Source: a virus
Strand: one strand, 5' to 3'
Length of the DNA stretch: 30,415 nucleotides
IMG/VR virus record: IMGVR_UViG_3300042291_000664
Coordinates: 1 to 30,415 of that record
The position numbers and the translations under genes are program-made. This document shows, in pieces, positions 5,301-22,309 of the stretch (the stretch's first letter is position 1; the number at the start of each line of letters is the position of its first letter). The notes under the pieces were generated by a model that ran no database searches, had not been told where the DNA came from, and saw only the letters and a list, made by a program, of their open reading frames with translations.

Positions 5301-6565
5301 TCTGCGCTATTATAATGGAAAGTAAATGTGTCTGATGAGTAAGAAAGAGGACTGTCAATCAATGATGTTGGTCCACTCCACATAGGTAATGAGTAAGCTG
5401 TACCACTACCTGTTACAGGATTGGTTAATGCATCCTGTTTATTATTGAATGTATTCCAATCCGTAGAACTAAGGTATCCATTTGAGGAAACTCCCGACTG
5501 AGTAATGCCTATATTAGATCCTACTAGAGTAATCGGTGCAACAGGAACTAATGCGTCTTGCTTTGCATAAAATGTGTTCCAATCTGTAGAACTTAAATAG
5601 CCATCTTGAGAAACTCCTGACTTATTGATTCCTATTGTGCCAATACCCGTAATTGTTCCACCGGTAATAGGGCCACTAGTAGAAATACTAGTAACTGTTC
5701 CTACACTCCATGTACGGTTGTCACTTAAATCATAAGTTGTACCATTGATTGTTAGTGTTCTGCTTTTATTAACCGCATCAGTAATGCCATACCCACTAAG
5801 AGTAGTAGGTGTATCAATAATCTTGCTCCAATTTAATGAAGTGATCCATGTAGGATCAGCATAAAAGCTATCAGTACGTACATTACCTACTGTCCATGAC
5901 CGATCTTCACTAAGATCATAGCCAATACCATTGATTGTAAGAGTTCTTGCAGCAGGAGCAGCGTCAACATCACTATAGGTAAGCACAACTGCGCCTACAT
6001 ATCCATTAACACTAACTACTGCATCAGTATTATCTACTTGCTGCCAAGCCGTACCGTCATATATTGCCCAATCTCCTACAAACCAATCAGTAATACCGTT
6101 TAGATTTGTAGTTCCTGCAACATTTACTACGTAGTATTCACCTTGATTACCTACAGAACTCTGTAAAGTAGGAGTATTTGTCGCTGCATTCCATACACCC
6201 TTGTACTGAACACCGCCAACAAGACTATTTATTTGGTTCTGAACCTTACCAAAAGCCTGAAGAATACTATCTGAAGCTATGATGTTACCGCCCGTAATGT
6301 TTAATCCTGATAAGATCTTGCTTATTACAGCAGTATTATCAAGAACAACACTTGCATTTCCGGGGCCTAGCGCTGTTGCTTGACCGGAAAGCTGAGTAAT
6401 ATAATTACCTTGCGGTTGATATACAGGAATATTTAGAACCTTGTTTATATATGTGGATGATCCTCCTGTTCCAATAGTTGTTAAGCTATTGATTGTAGGA
6501 AGATCCCATGATCTATCCTCAGATAGATCGTATGTTAATCCATTGATCGTAATGGTTCTATTCTC
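2105..6565 (-). repeat. Eight dispersed INGxxYDLSxxRxW coding repeats
   Basis: About 50-bp coding repeats for TINGxxYDLSxxRxW lie near 6.51-6.56, 5.90-5.95, 5.72-5.77, 4.90-4.95, 3.88-3.93, 2.97-3.02 and 2.66-2.71 kb in the 1498-residue fibre gene, and near 2.10-2.15 kb in the next fibre gene. The protein motif is better conserved than the DNA. They are potential sites for homologous exchange between fibre modules. Confidence 0.8.
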
Positions 6566-10403: not shown

Positions 10404-10865
10404 ATGAAATCAAATATAAATGACTGCCTAAAATATTGGAGGGTAATAAGACAGTACGTAAAGATTAAGTATAATCTTACTCAAGCAGACCTAGATATGC
10501 TCCTGTTCCTCTACACAGAAGACTACTTCTCAAAATTAAAGTTCAAAGAGTTCTCAGAATTGGTGGCATGGGATGCCGGACGGTTTAATAGACTGCTTGA
10601 AGAAGGGTGGATTGAAAATTTTAGGAAGCATAGGCCAAGATCAAGGGGCTTATACAACTTATCATACAAGGGTAAGCGTATGATAACGTCTATCTATAAG
10701 AAATTATCCGGCGAAGAGATCCCAATGACCGCAGAAAACAACCCTATGTTCAAAAAGAATGTGAGTTATAGCGATAAAGTGTACCGCAACATGATTAAAA
10801 CCATGAATGCGCACACTAAAAAGAACAAAATTAAAGAACAACTACTACATCACGTTCCTGAATGA
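10404..10865 (+). CDS. Winged-helix-like (MarR-type) DNA-binding protein
   Basis: I place the start at ATG 10404 (MKSNINDCLKYW), directly after a good promoter; the longer open frame upstream reads through promoter sequence. The 153-residue product has the MarR-like order: helix LTQADLDMLLFLYTED, helix KFKEFSELVAW, recognition-like helix RFNRLLEEGWIENFRKH, then a wing RSRGLYNLSYKGKRMI. It is the only plus-strand gene in a minus-strand region, and its 3' end overlaps the groES 3' end by 35 bases. It may regulate the late or chaperonin genes. The target is unknown. Confidence 0.65.
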   Translation: MKSNINDCLKYWRVIRQYVKIKYNLTQADLDMLLFLYTEDYFSKLKFKEFSELVAWDAGRFNRLLEEGWIENFRKHRPRSRGLYNLSYKGKRMITSIYKKLSGEEIPMTAENNPMFKKNVSYSDKVYRNMIKTMNAHTKKNKIKEQLLHHVPE

Positions 10866-11088
10866 TCGAATGTTGCTCGTCATTGATGATCATGGTGTAA
10901 CTATTTGCTTTATCGTAGTAGATTTCGTCACCTTCCTGTATAGCATTCACCTCAGTACCCGGAGTAATTACCAATCCACGCTTATAGCGCAGCTGATTTG
11001 TATCTTCACCTGACAGGATTATCCCTGATGCGGTCTTTACCTCTTCGTCAATCGGACGAATTACAATATTTTTACCTATCGCTTTCAT
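10831..11088 (-). CDS. groES: Co-chaperonin GroES (Cpn10)
   Basis: This 85-residue protein follows the Cpn10 pattern: NIVIRPIDEE, a mobile loop with TASGIILSGED (GIIL at residues 22-25, the GroEL-binding tripeptide region), RGLVITPG, then EGDEIYYDK and a final QERDVVVVL. GroES caps the GroEL ring to form the folding chamber. It is the last gene of a four-gene operon led by the phage groEL, separated from it by two small genes, and its ATG overlaps the preceding TGA (ATGA). It is shorter than the usual 95-97 residues, with a shortened roof hairpin. It is convergent with, and overlaps by 35 bases, the plus-strand regulator gene. Confidence 0.92.
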   Translation of the reverse strand: MKAIGKNIVIRPIDEEVKTASGIILSGEDTNQLRYKRGLVITPGTEVNAIQEGDEIYYDKANSYTMIINDEQHSIIQERDVVVVL

Positions 11089-11258
11089 TTTTTGTTTTCT
11101 AATATCTCATTTACCATCTCCAAGATCTCGCGCCCATCAAAACTATTGTGGACTACAAGCATCTCACCATTCTCAAAAGTAACCTTTGGCATGCAGTGGC
11201 ATGTCGTGCTGTATAAATCGTGGCTGTCTGTATCGTTTACGGGGTAGACATGTATCAT
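11085..11258 (-). CDS. Small protein of unknown function in the chaperonin operon (57 aa)
   Basis: ATG at 11258, coupled upstream by TAATG and downstream to groES by ATGA. The product begins MIHVYPVNDTDSHDLYSTTC, has a CHCMPKVTF segment and a C-terminal helix (EILEMVNEILENKK). CxC plus nearby His residues hint at metal binding. Unrecognised otherwise. Its fixed place between groEL and groES suggests co-expression with the chaperonin. Confidence 0.7.
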   Translation of the reverse strand: MIHVYPVNDTDSHDLYSTTCHCMPKVTFENGEMLVVHNSFDGREILEMVNEILENKK

Positions 11259-11509
11259 TAAAATACCGTCACAAAGATCGGAGTATTCTCTCCAACATAA
11301 GCACCTGATACATTAAACTCATAAAACTCAATCGCCTCATCCTCATCCATACCTTGCTCTACCAAGCAGTCAATTACTTTACTTGCGTCATACACGATGC
11401 GGCCATTGTTGTCAATACCAATGATTGCCTCATCATACCCATCAGCAAAGAGAAGATCCTCCCCTTGGAAGACCTCCTCAATTTCTTGTCGTTTAGTCAC
11501 GTGTGTCAT
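11258..11509 (-). CDS. Conserved phage protein of the FADGYDEAIIG type (83 aa)
   Basis: The sequence reads FADGYDEAIIGIDNNGRIVYD, then AIEFYEFNVSGAYVGENTPIF. Proteins with this DGYxxAIxG, DEAxExxxFNVxGAYVGExTP signature are widespread in phages of marine and gut bacteria; I know no function. The start overlaps the groEL 3' end by 17 bases. It is acidic and compact. In other phages I do not associate it with chaperonins, so the link here may be positional only. Confidence 0.75.
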   Translation of the reverse strand: MTHVTKRQEIEEVFQGEDLLFADGYDEAIIGIDNNGRIVYDASKVIDCLVEQGMDEDEAIEFYEFNVSGAYVGENTPIFVTVF

Positions 11510-13094
11510 AACTTCTTGCCATCGTAATGATCGCGTTAGTACTAAGTATCGTAACAGCTACACTCACTGCGTTCTGCAATGCTGAGCGTGTTACCTTCAA
11601 TGGGTCAATAACCCCCATCTTAATCAAGTCACCCATCTCTCTCGTCTTTAGGTTGTACCCATGACCGACAGGAACACCATCTTTGTATATCTCACTTGGC
11701 TTCAGACCGGCATTTGCCAAGATCTGTTGGAACGGAGCCATCAATGCGTTGCTCACAATGTAATAAGCAGCCAAGTACTCATTGCTGCAATCCGCAGGGA
11801 TCATTAGCTCAGCACTCTCTTCAAGTAATGCCTTGCCTGCACCCGCTAATATACCCTCTTCCAAAGCTGATCGTACTGCACATACTGCATCGTCAACCCT
11901 GTCATACAATTCCTTCTGCTCTAGGTCAGTCTGCCCGCCTACGTAGATCACACCTATGCCTCCTGTGAGCGACGCAATGCGCTCAAGTAAGTGATCCTTA
12001 TCAGATTTACGTTTGACTGTCTTAGCGGCCTCCCAAAGTTGGTCTACGCGCTCTTGCACTTTTACGCTATCAACCATCATCTCACTCTTCAGTATGATCG
12101 TCTTATCTTTGGATACCACAACCCTTGCTGCATGACCTAAATCTTCGTAACCCATTTGTGACAAATCATCACCCGTCTTCTCGCTAAAGTAGGTCGCGCC
12201 AATACTAACGGCAATGTCCTGCATCAGCTCATGCTGCTTATAACCAAAACTAGGTGGCTGTATGGTACATAACTTATAACCATTCTTCATCACATTGGCT
12301 GATAATGTATTTACCACATTGACTTGGCATGGTGCAATGATCAATAGCTTCTCTTTCTTGTCAATGATACTCTTCAAGACCTTGTCGATCTGCATGAAGT
12401 TCGATATGTCAATGTCAGCAACCAACACCATCACATCCTCAAACACACACTCATCACGACTTTGGTCATTAATGAATAGCGGACTAGAATATCCCCTGTC
12501 AATTTTTAATCCCATCGTGGTCTCCGCATACGTCTCAGAAGTCTGACTCTTCTCAACCGTAACAATGCCCTGACGACCAATGCTCTTATACACCTCCGAG
12601 ATGATCCGGCCTACCTCTCTATCATTGTTTGCAGATAGTGCCGCAATGTCCAATAACATATTGCTCGTAACCTTCTTCGACTTACGTCTTAGCTTATCCA
12701 CCACCTTTGAACTTATATCCACCATGTGTCTCAACACCTCTGTCCTGTTCATGCCCTCAGTGATGTGCTCAAGTCCTCCCAAGACCAAAGCCTCAGTCAA
12801 TACTATAGCAGTAGTCGTACCATCACCCGCCAACGTAGCAGTCTTGTCCGAAGCCTCCTTCATCATCCGAACCGCAAGGTTCTCGACAGGGTCTAATAAG
12901 TCTACAGCTTTTGCAACAGTTACACCATCCTTAGTGACAGTGATACCATGAGTATGGTTTGGTGACTCAATCAATACAGTGTTGCCCGAAGGACCCAATG
13001 TACTCTTGACTGCGCCCGAGATTTTCTTAATACCACTGATGAGTTTCTTACGACCCTCCTCTGCAAATATTAAATCTTTTGGAGTGTATTCCAT
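11493..13094 (-). CDS. groEL: Chaperonin GroEL (Cpn60), phage-encoded
   Basis: A complete group I chaperonin of 533 residues. Visible motifs: LGPSG (33-37), TKDGVTVA with D56 (E. coli D52), GDGTTT (90-95, with the catalytic D91), the apical stretch KIDRGYSSPLFIND, LLIIAP, and the equatorial GYNLKTREMGDL / GVIDPLKVTRSAL. YDRVDDAVCAVRSALEEG keeps the second catalytic Asp. The C-terminus stops at ITMARSYDTRD, without the Gly-Gly-Met tail of cellular GroEL. I choose ATG 13094, not the in-frame GTG at 13121, because a perfect -7 box covers that GTG. The operon continues with two small genes and groES. It likely folds a phage protein, such as a capsid or fibre protein, that the host chaperonin handles poorly; that is inference. 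Confidence 0.95.
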   Translation of the reverse strand: MEYTPKDLIFAEEGRKKLISGIKKISGAVKSTLGPSGNTVLIESPNHTHGITVTKDGVTVAKAVDLLDPVENLAVRMMKEASDKTATLAGDGTTTAIVLTEALVLGGLEHITEGMNRTEVLRHMVDISSKVVDKLRRKSKKVTSNMLLDIAALSANNDREVGRIISEVYKSIGRQGIVTVEKSQTSETYAETTMGLKIDRGYSSPLFINDQSRDECVFEDVMVLVADIDISNFMQIDKVLKSIIDKKEKLLIIAPCQVNVVNTLSANVMKNGYKLCTIQPPSFGYKQHELMQDIAVSIGATYFSEKTGDDLSQMGYEDLGHAARVVVSKDKTIILKSEMMVDSVKVQERVDQLWEAAKTVKRKSDKDHLLERIASLTGGIGVIYVGGQTDLEQKELYDRVDDAVCAVRSALEEGILAGAGKALLEESAELMIPADCSNEYLAAYYIVSNALMAPFQQILANAGLKPSEIYKDGVPVGHGYNLKTREMGDLIKMGVIDPLKVTRSALQNAVSVAVTILSTNAIITMARSYDTRD

Positions 13095-13120
13095 TATATT
13101 AAATTTAATTTGAGTGTTCA

Positions 13121-13152
13121 CAAAAATAACAATTAGTAATCATCTAAACAAA
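13121..13152 (-). promoter_or_regulatory. Promoter of the groEL operon
   Basis: On the minus strand, TTTG (13152-13149), 20-base spacer, TATTTTTG (13128-13121), which matches the Bacteroidota consensus TTTG-N19/21-TAnnTTTG. The start is expected near 13114, giving a leader of about 20 bases before ATG 13094. This also decides the groEL start. Confidence 0.7.
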
Positions 13153-19539: not shown

Positions 19540-19722
19540 ATGAGCGATCAAGAATTAGATAAAATCAATAACTACGTGCACGGCCTAAGAGATAGGTTAG
19601 CATACCTAGAGGGTAAAAATAAGGAAGAGTTTGAGGGATACCTAGATACTTTATTCAATGCTTATCCTAGCCCCAAGAAAGTATTGTATGGTTTCGATGT
19701 TATAAAAACGGTACACAGATGA
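19540..19722 (+). CDS. Small helical protein (60 aa)
   Basis: The sequence starts MSDQELDKINNYVHGLRDRL and is helical and acidic, ending PKKVLYGFDVIKTVHR. It is preceded by a 48-base AT-rich gap. The stop is coupled to the next start by ATGA. Confidence 0.6.
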   Translation: MSDQELDKINNYVHGLRDRLAYLEGKNKEEFEGYLDTLFNAYPSPKKVLYGFDVIKTVHR

Positions 19723-19886
19723 TAGCCACGATCAGTAAGAATGTTTTCAGGGTGTACTACGGTAGTGTACTTGTTGGGACGGTGCTTGCCGAGACAAGCT
19801 ATGAGGCGATCGAGAGGGTTCAGTGCAAATTAACTGAATATTATCCCGACCTAAAAAGAAAAGCATTTAATGCAAAAAAAGTTTGA
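19719..19886 (+). CDS. Small unknown protein closing the early cluster (55 aa)
   Basis: ATGA-coupled to the gene before. It starts MIATISKNVFRVYYGSVLVG and ends YYPDLKRKAFNAKKV. The -33 element of the promoter at 19882 overlaps its last codons. No family recognised. Confidence 0.55.
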   Translation: MIATISKNVFRVYYGSVLVGTVLAETSYEAIERVQCKLTEYYPDLKRKAFNAKKV

Positions 19887-19912
19887 ATTGTTCAGAAGTT
19901 TTACTATTTTTG
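19882..19912 (+). promoter_or_regulatory. Strong Bacteroidota-type promoter before the structured leader
   Basis: TTTG (19882-19885), 19-base spacer, TATTTTTG (19905-19912) is an exact TTTG-N19-TAnnTTTG match. The start is expected near 19919. The leader RNA, about 190 bases, contains hairpins and a tRNA-like fold before the ATG at 20112. Confidence 0.75.
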
Positions 19913-20010
19913 TTCAAGCGCAGTACAATACTAGGGTAAGTCCCTGAAAATATCGCTCGTTCTTTTAAGTACCAATTAAAAAGCCCTACATCAGCGAGTG
20001 TAGGCAACAC

Positions 20011-20081
20011 GGTCGGGAGATGCATGGTTTTTCTCATAATTTTCCATGAGGTTCATAAGGGTTCGACTCCCTTCCCGATCA
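20011..20081 (+). ncRNA. tRNA-like element in the leader RNA
   Basis: GGTCGGG (20011-20017) pairs with CCCGATC (20074-20080) as a 7-bp acceptor stem with one G-U. AAGGG TTCGACT CCCTT (20057-20073) is a canonical T arm. Between them are only 39 bases. The best central helix is CTCAT / ATGAG (20033-20050) with an 8-base loop AATTTTCC; no good D stem forms. An alternative fold puts CCA in the anticodon position (Trp) but with a weak A-U/G-U stem. It may be a degenerate tRNA, an unusual tRNA, or a tRNA mimic. Upstream at 19985-19998/20004, CCTACA / TGTAGG forms another hairpin. Confidence 0.5.
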
Positions 20082-20111
20082 CAATAATTAAATCAAATTA
20101 AATCAAATCAA

Positions 20112-20303
20112 ATGAAAGAGATCAGTATCAAGCAAGGAGATGACAATGCCGTAGAGGTACATCTTAATGGAAATGTAGTTGAAATTATCCAAATGATAGT
20201 TTTTGCTATGGAAAGAAACAATGACTGCGGAGCAATCCTGCTTACTGCGGTGTCCATGTTCAAGGGACCTCAAGAAGAACTTCAACCAATAAATCTTAAC
20301 TAG
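20112..20303 (+). CDS. Small protein of unknown function (63 aa)
   Basis: The start is preceded by AAATCAAATCAA. The product reads MKEISIKQGDDNAVEVHLNG, NVVEIIQMIVFAMERNNDCG, then a short tail. It is the first protein gene behind the structured leader and next to the DnaA domain IV-like gene. No family recognised. Confidence 0.65.
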   Translation: MKEISIKQGDDNAVEVHLNGNVVEIIQMIVFAMERNNDCGAILLTAVSMFKGPQEELQPINLN

Positions 20304-20304
20304 T

Positions 20305-20607
20305 ATGAAGAGCGATATTTTTTATCAGTACGTGGATAAGATCACAGATCTGTTTCGGATCACGCGCGAGGATCTATTCTCAAAAACAAAGCGCAGAGAT
20401 ATTGCAGATGCAAGGAACTTATTGTACTACCTATGCAAGAGCAGGCCAATGACATTGGTCTACATCCAAAGATACATGTCCGAGAATGGATATGACATCA
20501 AGCATTCATCAATTATCTACGGGATAAAAACCGTAGTAAGTAAGGTTGAGGATGACGATGACTACATGAGGATCGTAAAAGAAATTGAAAAATCTGTATT
20601 TATTTAA
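20305..20607 (+). CDS. DnaA domain IV-like DNA-binding protein (100 aa)
   Basis: The protein matches the C-terminal DNA-binding domain of DnaA without the AAA+ part: LFSKTKRRDIADARNLLYYL corresponds to the basic RxxxxARxxAxYL helix, MTLVYIQRYM to the following helix, and IKHSSIIYGIKTV to the DHSTVxxA signature. In DnaA this domain binds the DnaA box. Here it may recognise a phage origin or recruit host replication proteins. It opens the replication and recombination module, and a second such protein is encoded at 27.3 kb. Confidence 0.75.
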   Translation: MKSDIFYQYVDKITDLFRITREDLFSKTKRRDIADARNLLYYLCKSRPMTLVYIQRYMSENGYDIKHSSIIYGIKTVVSKVEDDDDYMRIVKEIEKSVFI

Positions 20608-20618
20608 CAACAAACTAT

Positions 20619-21287
20619 ATGACTGAAAACCAAACCAAGAAGCCGACAGTTTTTGAAAGACTGTCCGCGATTAACGTGAATGAGCACGTTGAAAAGAAAG
20701 ACAACCTGACCTACCTATCATGGGCGTGGGCATGGTCTATGACTAAGAAGGAATGTCCTGATGCAAGCTATCAGATCCTTGAGGTAGAGTACGATGAGGA
20801 CCTAGGGTTCATGTGTCACACCAATGTTACAATTGAAGGATCCACTTTAGGGATGTGGCTTCCCGTAATGGACGGTAAGAATAAGAGCATGAAGAAAAAG
20901 TCTTATACTTATTCAACCAAGTATGGAGAGAAGACGGTTGAGTCTGCTACTACCTTCGACATTAATAAAACTTTGATGCGTTGTCTAGTAAAGAATCTTG
21001 CCATGTTCGGTCTAGGTATTTACATCTATGCAGGCGAAGACCTTCCTGAATCAGAGGCACAAGTGGCAAAGTCTACTCCTGCACCTGCACCTGCTGCGGC
21101 CAAGACTGCTCCTGAAAAAGCTGAACTAGCTGATCTTAAAAAAGGAACTGCTAATTGGGATGCAGTAGTTAAGTACGTAACTGCCAATAAAGAGTTAGGT
21201 ATTGAGGCTATCGGGAAGCAGATCACACGTAAGTATAAAATTTCACCTGCACTTAAAAAGGAATTAGCTGAATTATGCAAACAATAA
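20619..21287 (+). CDS. DUF1071-type single-strand annealing protein
   Basis: The 222-residue protein has the DUF1071 (Sak3-like) features YLSWAWAWSMTKKECPDASY (residues 32-51) and TTFDINKTLMRCLVKNLAMF followed by GLGIYIYAGEDLP. These families are recombination mediators that anneal single strands. A Pro/Ala-rich linker (APAPAPAAAK) leads to a C-terminal helical domain. It overlaps the exonuclease gene by 13 bases, as expected for an annealing protein plus 5'-exonuclease pair, with an SSB-like gene following. Confidence 0.8.
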   Translation: MTENQTKKPTVFERLSAINVNEHVEKKDNLTYLSWAWAWSMTKKECPDASYQILEVEYDEDLGFMCHTNVTIEGSTLGMWLPVMDGKNKSMKKKSYTYSTKYGEKTVESATTFDINKTLMRCLVKNLAMFGLGIYIYAGEDLPESEAQVAKSTPAPAPAAAKTAPEKAELADLKKGTANWDAVVKYVTANKELGIEAIGKQITRKYKISPALKKELAELCKQ

Positions 21288-22009
21288 TTAATGAGCTAAG
21301 GGATGACGAAGAGTACTACCGAGGTAAAGGTAAATACTACTTATCCAATTCAGACATTGGATCCCTGCTGAAAAATCCTAAAAGCTTTAGAGCCCACAGA
21401 GAGGACAGTAAACACTTTCAGGAAGGAAGATACTTTCATCAGCTATTATTGGAGCCTGAGAAGGCTGAGAATGTGCTATACGTTGACGTTACAACTCGCA
21501 CTACCAAGGAGTATAAGACTTTCTGCGCTGACAATGACCTTCCGTTCTGCATGCTAAAGAATGAGGTTGATAATGTTAAGAGATTAGTATCTGTAATTAA
21601 GTCAAACATAAATTTTTATGATGATATTTATAGAGAGGGAAATCTTTTCGAGGAGCCAATGATCGCTAAGATCAAAGGTTATGATTGGAAAGGTAAGGCT
21701 GACATCATTACCAATGATTATATCATTGACCTTAAAACAACAGCAGACATAAATAAGTTTAGGTGGAATGCCAAGGCCTATAACTATGACTCACAGTGTT
21801 ACATCTATGAGCAATTGTTTGGTAAGCCACTATACTTTTATGTCATTGACAAAGAAACTGCACAACTAGGAGTGTTCAGGCCATCAGAGAACTTCGTTAA
21901 AGGAGGAGAGATGAAAGCTGATAGAGCATTAGCAGTGTATGAGAAGTACTTCGGACCCAATGCTACCGAGGAAATAGAGAACCATTTTATAAACGAAACA
22001 TTAGATTAA
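21275..22009 (+). CDS. PD-(D/E)XK exonuclease (DUF3799 / RecB-Cas4-like)
   Basis: The nuclease core is visible: H55 and E60 in GRYFHQLLLEPE, D143 in WKGKADII, then D152 and K154 in IIDLKTT, and a QxxxY motif (Q174, Y178). This is the RecB/Cas4-like order. The N-terminus (YYLSNSDIGSLLKNPKSFRA) is typical of the PDDEXK family found next to phage annealing proteins. It probably resects double-strand ends to 3' overhangs for the DUF1071 protein. Both genes overlap. Confidence 0.85.
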   Translation: MQTIINELRDDEEYYRGKGKYYLSNSDIGSLLKNPKSFRAHREDSKHFQEGRYFHQLLLEPEKAENVLYVDVTTRTTKEYKTFCADNDLPFCMLKNEVDNVKRLVSVIKSNINFYDDIYREGNLFEEPMIAKIKGYDWKGKADIITNDYIIDLKTTADINKFRWNAKAYNYDSQCYIYEQLFGKPLYFYVIDKETAQLGVFRPSENFVKGGEMKADRALAVYEKYFGPNATEEIENHFINETLD

Positions 22010-22015
22010 TTAAAC

Positions 22016-22309
22016 ATGTCACAAGAAGAAAAAGTATTTGCCGAAGGATTTATCTTTAAGAGAAGAGAGAATGCACCTGATTTTGTAATTGGAAACATAT
22101 CCATTAAGGTGGATGAAGCCATAGCATTCCTGCGTAAGCATGAGAAGAACGGTTGGGTTAACTTAAATGCCAAGACTGCAAGATCAGGTAATCCATACCT
22201 TGAGTTGGATACATGGGAAGCCACAAATAAAAAGGATGAAGGAGCTAAGCCGAAGCCGGCACCTGCACCTGCACCCGAGGACGAAGACGATCCGGACTTG
22301 CCTTTCTAA
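22016..22309 (+). CDS. SSB-like protein with acidic C-terminal tip (97 aa)
   Basis: A short beta-rich domain (FAEGFIFKRRENAPDFVIGN, ISIKVDEAIAFLRKHEK) is followed by a Pro/Ala linker (KPKPAPAPAPEDE) and the tip DDPDLPF. This tip mirrors the DDDIPF C-terminus by which SSB proteins recruit partners. Position right after an annealing protein and an exonuclease supports a single-strand DNA-binding role. The domain is smaller than a full OB fold of E. coli SSB. An intrinsic terminator follows. Confidence 0.7.
   Translation: MSQEEKVFAEGFIFKRRENAPDFVIGNISIKVDEAIAFLRKHEKNGWVNLNAKTARSGNPYLELDTWEATNKKDEGAKPKPAPAPAPEDEDDPDLPF

Follow-up and report, generated by a model that had tools for sequence, protein, structure and literature searches.

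A tRNA-like element without D arm in a phage replication-operon leader and its relation to a family of phage RNAs with varying centres

During tRNA maturation, RNase P and RNase Z recognise the acceptor stem together with the T arm. The tRNA fold (RF00005; tRNA-Leu-like class II body) shares with the RNA family analysed here the acceptor stem, the T arm and a D arm with GG and A14/A15, as well as a discriminator that is mostly A, the A15-U48 pair and a position in phage tRNA clusters. In contrast to tRNA, the family lacks an anticodon arm, carries a centre of 10-120 nt that is exchanged between elements, and has an acceptor that is near-invariant across unrelated phages; the element that we describe first lacks the D arm as well. 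tmRNA likewise combines tRNA-like ends with another structure in place of the anticodon arm, which is a pseudoknot in several family members. However, family members are mostly 62-160 nt long and have no constant reading frame, and the alanine pair G3-U70 is replaced by U-A in our element and by U-A or U-G in the family.

Phages use structured RNA against type III toxin-antitoxin defence (PMC3475682). The phage pseudo-ToxI RNA described there resembles the family in being structured, encoded by phages and subject to change through expansion and recombination, but it consists of repeats in an array and has no tRNA body, and we found no sequence relation between the two. Several family modules are H-type pseudoknots, none of them in the DNA analysed first, and Rfam gave no ToxI-like match in the family loci searched. 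GOLLD and ROOL (PMC12286853) are also non-coding phage RNAs often found near tRNA islands; they differ in being far larger and in having conserved folds of their own, and neither was matched by Rfam in the 26 family loci searched.

The element and its setting

We analysed a stretch of 30,415 nt from an uncultured virus (IMG/VR record IMGVR_UViG_3300042291_000664, positions 1 to 30,415), called the window in the following. The features around the element are:

19883-19912, + strand: promoter-like site of Bacteroidota type, TTG-19 nt-TATTTTTG (TANNTTTG), with TTG at 19883-19885 and TATTTTTG at 19905-19912; overlaps the stop codon of an upstream 55-aa ORF
19887-20111, + strand: extra segment of about 225 bp with the leader and the tRNA-like element; the closest two relatives, L001 and L002, lack it
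19932-19946, + strand: small hairpin TAGGG-TAAGT-CCCTG
19963-20006, + strand: leader motif GTTCTTTTAAGTACCAATTAAAAAGCCC and hairpin CCTACA/TGTAGG; terminator-like on the - strand
20011-20081, + strand: tRNA-like element without D arm, made of acceptor stem, central hairpin, T arm and discriminator A20081; found by a covariance model built without the window and by alignment with L006, L011 and L145
20023-20048, + strand: central hairpin CATGG-TTTTTCTCATAATTTT-CCATG in place of the D and anticodon arms; its loop core CTCATA is common to the three relatives, while the stem differs
20057-20073, + strand: T arm AAGGG-TTCGACT-CCCTT; aligned relatives have the compensatory forms ACAGG/CCTGT and ATGGG/CCCAT
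20082-20111, + strand: A+T-rich 5' leader CACAATAATTAAATCAAATTAAATCAAATCAA, which would stay on the mRNA after an RNase Z-like cleavage
20112-20303, + strand: 63-aa ORF, the first gene past the leader; no PHROGs match
20305-20607, + strand: small protein, annotated as dnaA in the relative MW202828
20619-21287, + strand: Sak-like annealing protein
21275-22009, + strand: exonuclease VIII-like protein
22016-22309, + strand: probable SSB-like protein

The window carries the extra segment, since homologues of the flanking ORFs (19719-19886 and 20112-20303) overlap or abut in L001 and L002. The first-pass annotation of this DNA had placed a near-perfect promoter ahead of the leader. This holds for a site of Bacteroidota type but not for a sigma-70 site, of which 9 of 12 positions match and which is no commoner than in shuffled sequence. 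The site says little on its own, being one of six such Bacteroidota-type sites on the + strand of the window; a similar one lies immediately before the dnaA-like gene of L001. Both leader hairpins were present as first described (AGGG/CCCT within 19932-19946, CCTACA/TGTAGG at 19985-20004). Folding of the whole 192-nt leader was not unusually stable (z -0.95). In L145, the motif GTTCTTTTAAGTACCAATTAAAAAGCCC recurs with another stem just 3' of the homologous element and is followed by a U-rich tract.

A pattern search yielded no relatives of the 63-aa ORF. After the SSB-like gene, the replication operon continues with a primase/helicase and then a helicase. The best match of the primase/helicase among annotated records is MW202828, an environmental podovirus genome, and among cultured phages its best matches are Flavobacterium phages. 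A few protein matches, together with the promoter type, point to a probable Bacteroidota host. Read by eye, the translations of 10831-13121 on the - strand suggest that the phage has GroES-like (10831-11088) and GroEL-like (11493-13121) proteins of its own.

Several of the related loci (L003, L006, L012, L020, L035, L042, L048 and others) have a conserved H-type pseudoknot leader directly 5' of the SSB-like gene. Its loop 7-mer (GCCTCAG, GCCTTAG, ACCTCAG, ATCTCAG or GCCTAAG) is exactly complementary to a downstream sequence in about 22 distinct leaders, and the arrangement resembles the autoregulatory leader of T4 gene 32. The window has no such leader, its exonuclease and SSB-like genes being 6 nt apart. 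Between these two genes, L012, L018 and L036 contain a conserved long imperfect inverted repeat, approximately GGGAGACTAAGGGACCCCACCTACCTGCAATTGGGGTGTGAGTTGTTAGCAGGTAGTCTCCC, which occurs with or without a neighbouring tRNA-like element.

From 20011 to 20081 the element reads GGTCGGG-AG-ATG-CATGG-TTTTTCTCATAATTTT-CCATG-AGGTTCAT-AAGGG-TTCGACT-CCCTT-CCCGATC-A. As in tRNA, a 7-bp acceptor stem (20011-20017/20074-20080, six Watson-Crick pairs and one G-U) is combined with a 5-bp T stem and a TTCRANN loop. The D arm, which most other family members retain, is absent from the window element. A 5-bp anticodon stem with a 7-nt loop, U33 and a purine at 37 was not found either; the loop of the window hairpin has 16 nt. 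The acceptor, the T arm with its TTCGACT loop and the missing D arm had all been noticed at first pass, and its description of a D-arm-less tRNA-like RNA without usable anticodon inside a replication-operon leader was correct. Only the central helix has to be redrawn: in place of CTCAT/ATGAG with an 8-base loop, the relatives support CATGG/CCATG (20023-20027/20044-20048) around a 16-nt loop, which is conserved among the window and its relatives at 16-19 nt.

The centre type of the window is present in three related phages (L006, L011, L145). In their alignment with the window the CTCATA loop core is unchanged, and part of the differences in the acceptor, the T stem and the central stem are paired. 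A covariance model derived solely from L006, L011 and L145, with the window left out, gave 45.5 bits (E 1.6e-10) on the window element and at most 8.1 bits on the next match in the window; on 57 other loci, its best matches were mostly other elements of the family. ARAGORN reported no tRNA and no tmRNA at the element, and Rfam gave no match in the window at the gathering threshold, the best weak match of the element being tRNA-Sec (17.7 bits, E 0.97, threshold 47). The likeness to tmRNA that the first-pass annotation had pointed to was not borne out by ARAGORN, by Rfam or by the acceptor identity. The two roles that it had proposed, regulating the downstream genes and evading host tRNA nucleases, are conceivable. 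We additionally ran a descriptor of acceptor, T arm and TTCRA loop over 80 related loci (0.9 Mb of phage DNA). It found 29 matches, all on the coding strand, compared to 0, 0 and 2 in three randomised copies, which argues that the fold is more than chance. As judged from sequence comparison, the window element is a real tRNA-like fold, yet neither a normal nor a decayed tRNA. The family as a whole fits neither tRNA, for want of an anticodon arm and in the window also of a D arm, nor tmRNA, given its acceptor identity and the results of the models.

A family with one body and many centres

Two pattern scans of viral contigs returned 59 and at least 120 stretches, and we catalogued 264 elements, more than 200 of them distinct, in diverse uncultured phages. 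Most have a common body, AGTCAGG-TGGCGGAATTGGTAGACGC ... ACAGG-TTCGAAT-CCTGT-CCTGACT-A, with the acceptor AGTCAGG/CCTGACT, a tRNA-Leu-like D arm, a TTCGAAT T loop and the A15-U48 pair. The 5' body occurred in only three small contigs among the genomes of 84,980 bacterial and archaeal species, compared to more than 120 viral stretches. This indicates a phage-specific family, and we rejected an origin from host tRNAs for the same reason. In 50,697 records of cultured phages, the same body was not found except for partial matches in three Synechococcus phage records. The family is apparently spread through uncultured, mostly Bacteroidota-type, phages and is apparently undescribed, no description having been found in the openly licensed literature.

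The acceptor GGTCGGG of the window deviates from the typical family acceptor. However, L006 joins the common body (GGTCAGGTGGCG...ACAGGTTCGAATCCTGTCCTGACC) to the centre type of the window, and this shared centre, together with the score of the three-relative model, places the window element in the family. When the loop type of the window was searched alone, 48 stretches were returned, with elements only in the three known relatives. A candidate member in a cultured phage is an 86-nt 'tRNA-Cys' of Flavobacterium phage immuto 2-6A (L334, NC_055915.1, 20246-20331), which ARAGORN does not call. Its acceptor is different, and it scores 23.0 bits (E 0.006) with the window-type model, a canonical tRNA of that phage scoring only a little lower. 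With such a related-looking element in a cultured phage, the family idea can be tested directly.

The body varies in the manner of a structured RNA. At the first four T-stem pairs, 25, 19, 16 and 8 elements have compensated changes on both sides, and double-sided changes likewise preserve acceptor pairs. Like the Levitt pair of tRNA, positions 15 and 48 pair as A-U in 205 elements and as G-C in 8. Because part of the catalogue was gathered by body sequence, the identity of the searched 5' body is inflated; in the 102 elements for which only the 5' body had served as query, the 3' body nevertheless matches the consensus at 96% identity.

Between the D and T arms lie 10-120 nt of unrelated sequence, compared to the 17-nt anticodon arm of tRNA. 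These centres are more structured than chance (mean MFE z -0.84 +- 0.09; pseudoknot z -0.70 +- 0.10), and helices that stop precisely 2 nt short of the T arm were seen in 42.5% of 113 representatives, compared to 16.6% of shuffled sequences. Some modules form H-type pseudoknots with compensatory changes (such as CCGG/CCGG and ATGG/CCAT in L142, CTGG/CCAG and CGGG/CCCG in L222), and others are hairpins with GNRA loops. No universal motif was enriched among the centres. Antisense action on the phage itself was rejected, because the longest complement to the own locus (9.35 nt) does not exceed that of shuffled centres (9.39 nt).

Two further observations were made in the catalogued loci. The Rfam RNA 'freshwater-1' (RF02979, 72.3 bits) lies at 10301-10363 of L142 within the tRNA cluster that holds seven family elements. 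In L186, the 5' body at 6114 is followed by the next CCTGACT only about 290 nt on, with a small ORF between them, possibly an element interrupted by a gene.

Explanations for the elements

The explanation that we prefer, and to which we give about an even chance, is that the family consists of phage-encoded, tRNA-bodied, non-decoding RNAs that are processed and stable and whose module carries a specific activity, with the window element as a reduced member that lost its D arm. Host RNase P and RNase Z would excise the RNAs from longer phage transcripts, after which the RNAs would be CCA-tailed and stable. In the window, the cut would at the same time release the mRNA of the replication operon, headed by a short A+T-rich leader. 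Since own promoters are rare among the elements (5.9%, compared to 3.1% of random positions), the elements are likely to be co-transcribed and processed. A stable, non-decoding RNA is suggested by compensatory changes that preserve the body although its anticodon arm has been replaced.

The positions of the elements also allow a role in cis. Elements sit between genes on the coding strand, and about 35% of them lie 10-45 nt upstream of an ORF, for which a purely cis-acting role is possible. A start 15-25 nt downstream follows 56 of 264 elements but only 17 of 311 canonical tRNAs. It is conceivable, though in our estimate unlikely, that only the body matters, as a substrate of RNase P and RNase Z that cuts polycistronic transcripts and gives the next gene a short clean leader, leaving the centre free to vary. 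The scarcity of own promoters and the 30-nt A+T-rich leader that a cut in the window would leave ahead of the ORF fit this explanation as well. However, about two thirds of the elements have no close downstream start, many occur in runs (seven in L142), and a free spacer would hardly be as structured as the centres are or 87-100% identical between unrelated sites, as some centres proved to be. Acting as a processing point would suit about a third of the elements, that of the window included, and is compatible with a role in trans.

That the modules of the preferred non-decoding RNAs matter is suggested by this high identity across unrelated sites. In all, 84 pairs of elements have centres of up to 107 nt with at least 80% identity and unrelated sequence on both sides. 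Conversely, loci upstream of the SSB-like gene (L012, L022, L036, L051 and L130) have matching flanks, 90-98% identical and up to 98% over 350 nt, around centres no more alike than shuffled sequence. Among 216 independent elements (one per context) there are 157 centre families, of which 124 were seen once and 22 twice, and the Chao1 estimate is about 506 families. This comparison of flanks and centres shows that the centres behave like cassettes that can be exchanged, which is what recombination within conserved body sequences would produce. The same pattern, of one module in unrelated flanks and different modules in one flank, could also arise if the bodies were mainly short recombination homologies by which modules spread without benefit to their carrier; a body identity far above that of canonical tRNAs of one isotype, in a comparison biased by selection of the elements, agrees with this. 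We nevertheless consider such selfish exchange improbable, since compensatory changes in the T stem, the acceptor and the modules, as well as the Levitt pair, point to selection at the RNA level, and since no recombinase or other protein accompanies the elements.

A gradual loss of phage tRNA genes, the decayed tRNA of the first-pass annotation, would account for the frequent location of elements in or beside tRNA clusters (those of L096 and L142 lie amid ordinary tRNA genes, and a contig has between one and about eight copies). It would also account for the 30-47 bits that some members reach with the Rfam tRNA model (RF00005, threshold 29), compared to about 40-75 for canonical tRNAs of the same loci. 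Decay would erode every part alike, whereas acceptor and T arm are more uniform in the family than in intact tRNAs, albeit in a selection-biased comparison, stem pairs (through compensatory change) and the A15-U48 elbow pair persist around a centre that is replaced, and highly identical modules recur, which makes this origin very doubtful.

Equally hard to sustain is the idea of an odd tRNA that still decodes, for instance once an insertion has been removed or through an atypical anticodon loop: ARAGORN makes forced tRNA calls on 51 of 219 elements and the window loop TTTTTCTCATAATTTT holds a heptamer of tRNA-Met genes (CTCATAA, similar to a CAU anticodon loop), but no stem closes this heptamer, the anticodon-like CTCATA is not enriched in the centres, canonical-like anticodon arms are no commoner than in shuffled sequence (6 of 219 elements, 7.7 expected), and 16 centres of less than 21 nt are too short for an anticodon arm with variable loop.

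What the modules of the stable, non-decoding RNAs do is a guess, because they show neither complementarity to their own locus above chance nor a universal motif nor a constant protein partner (the largest cluster of neighbouring proteins occurs in 15 of 128 loci). With less certainty than the processing steps, we propose that the module carries a specific activity with a fast-evolving binding specificity, and that the size and turnover of the module pool may reflect conflict with host factors, of which a large, fast-changing and recombining pool is a typical product. In such a conflict the RNAs would most plausibly decoy or inhibit defence RNases or toxins, a role for which the phage use of RNA against type III toxin-antitoxin systems provides a lead by analogy.

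Overall, and more tentatively than for the RNAs themselves, uncultured phages may draw on a common, recombining set of several hundred RNA modules, all carried by a single invariant tRNA body. Each of them would act against or through a particular host factor, and the whole would be an RNA counterpart of the anti-defence cassette pool, made by the tRNA maturation machinery of the host. If true, a widespread class of phage RNAs has been overlooked, since annotation tools miss the elements or call them tRNA. It would further mean that a tRNA body can carry exchangeable RNA modules and that phages hold a large pool of candidate RNA effectors against bacterial defences.
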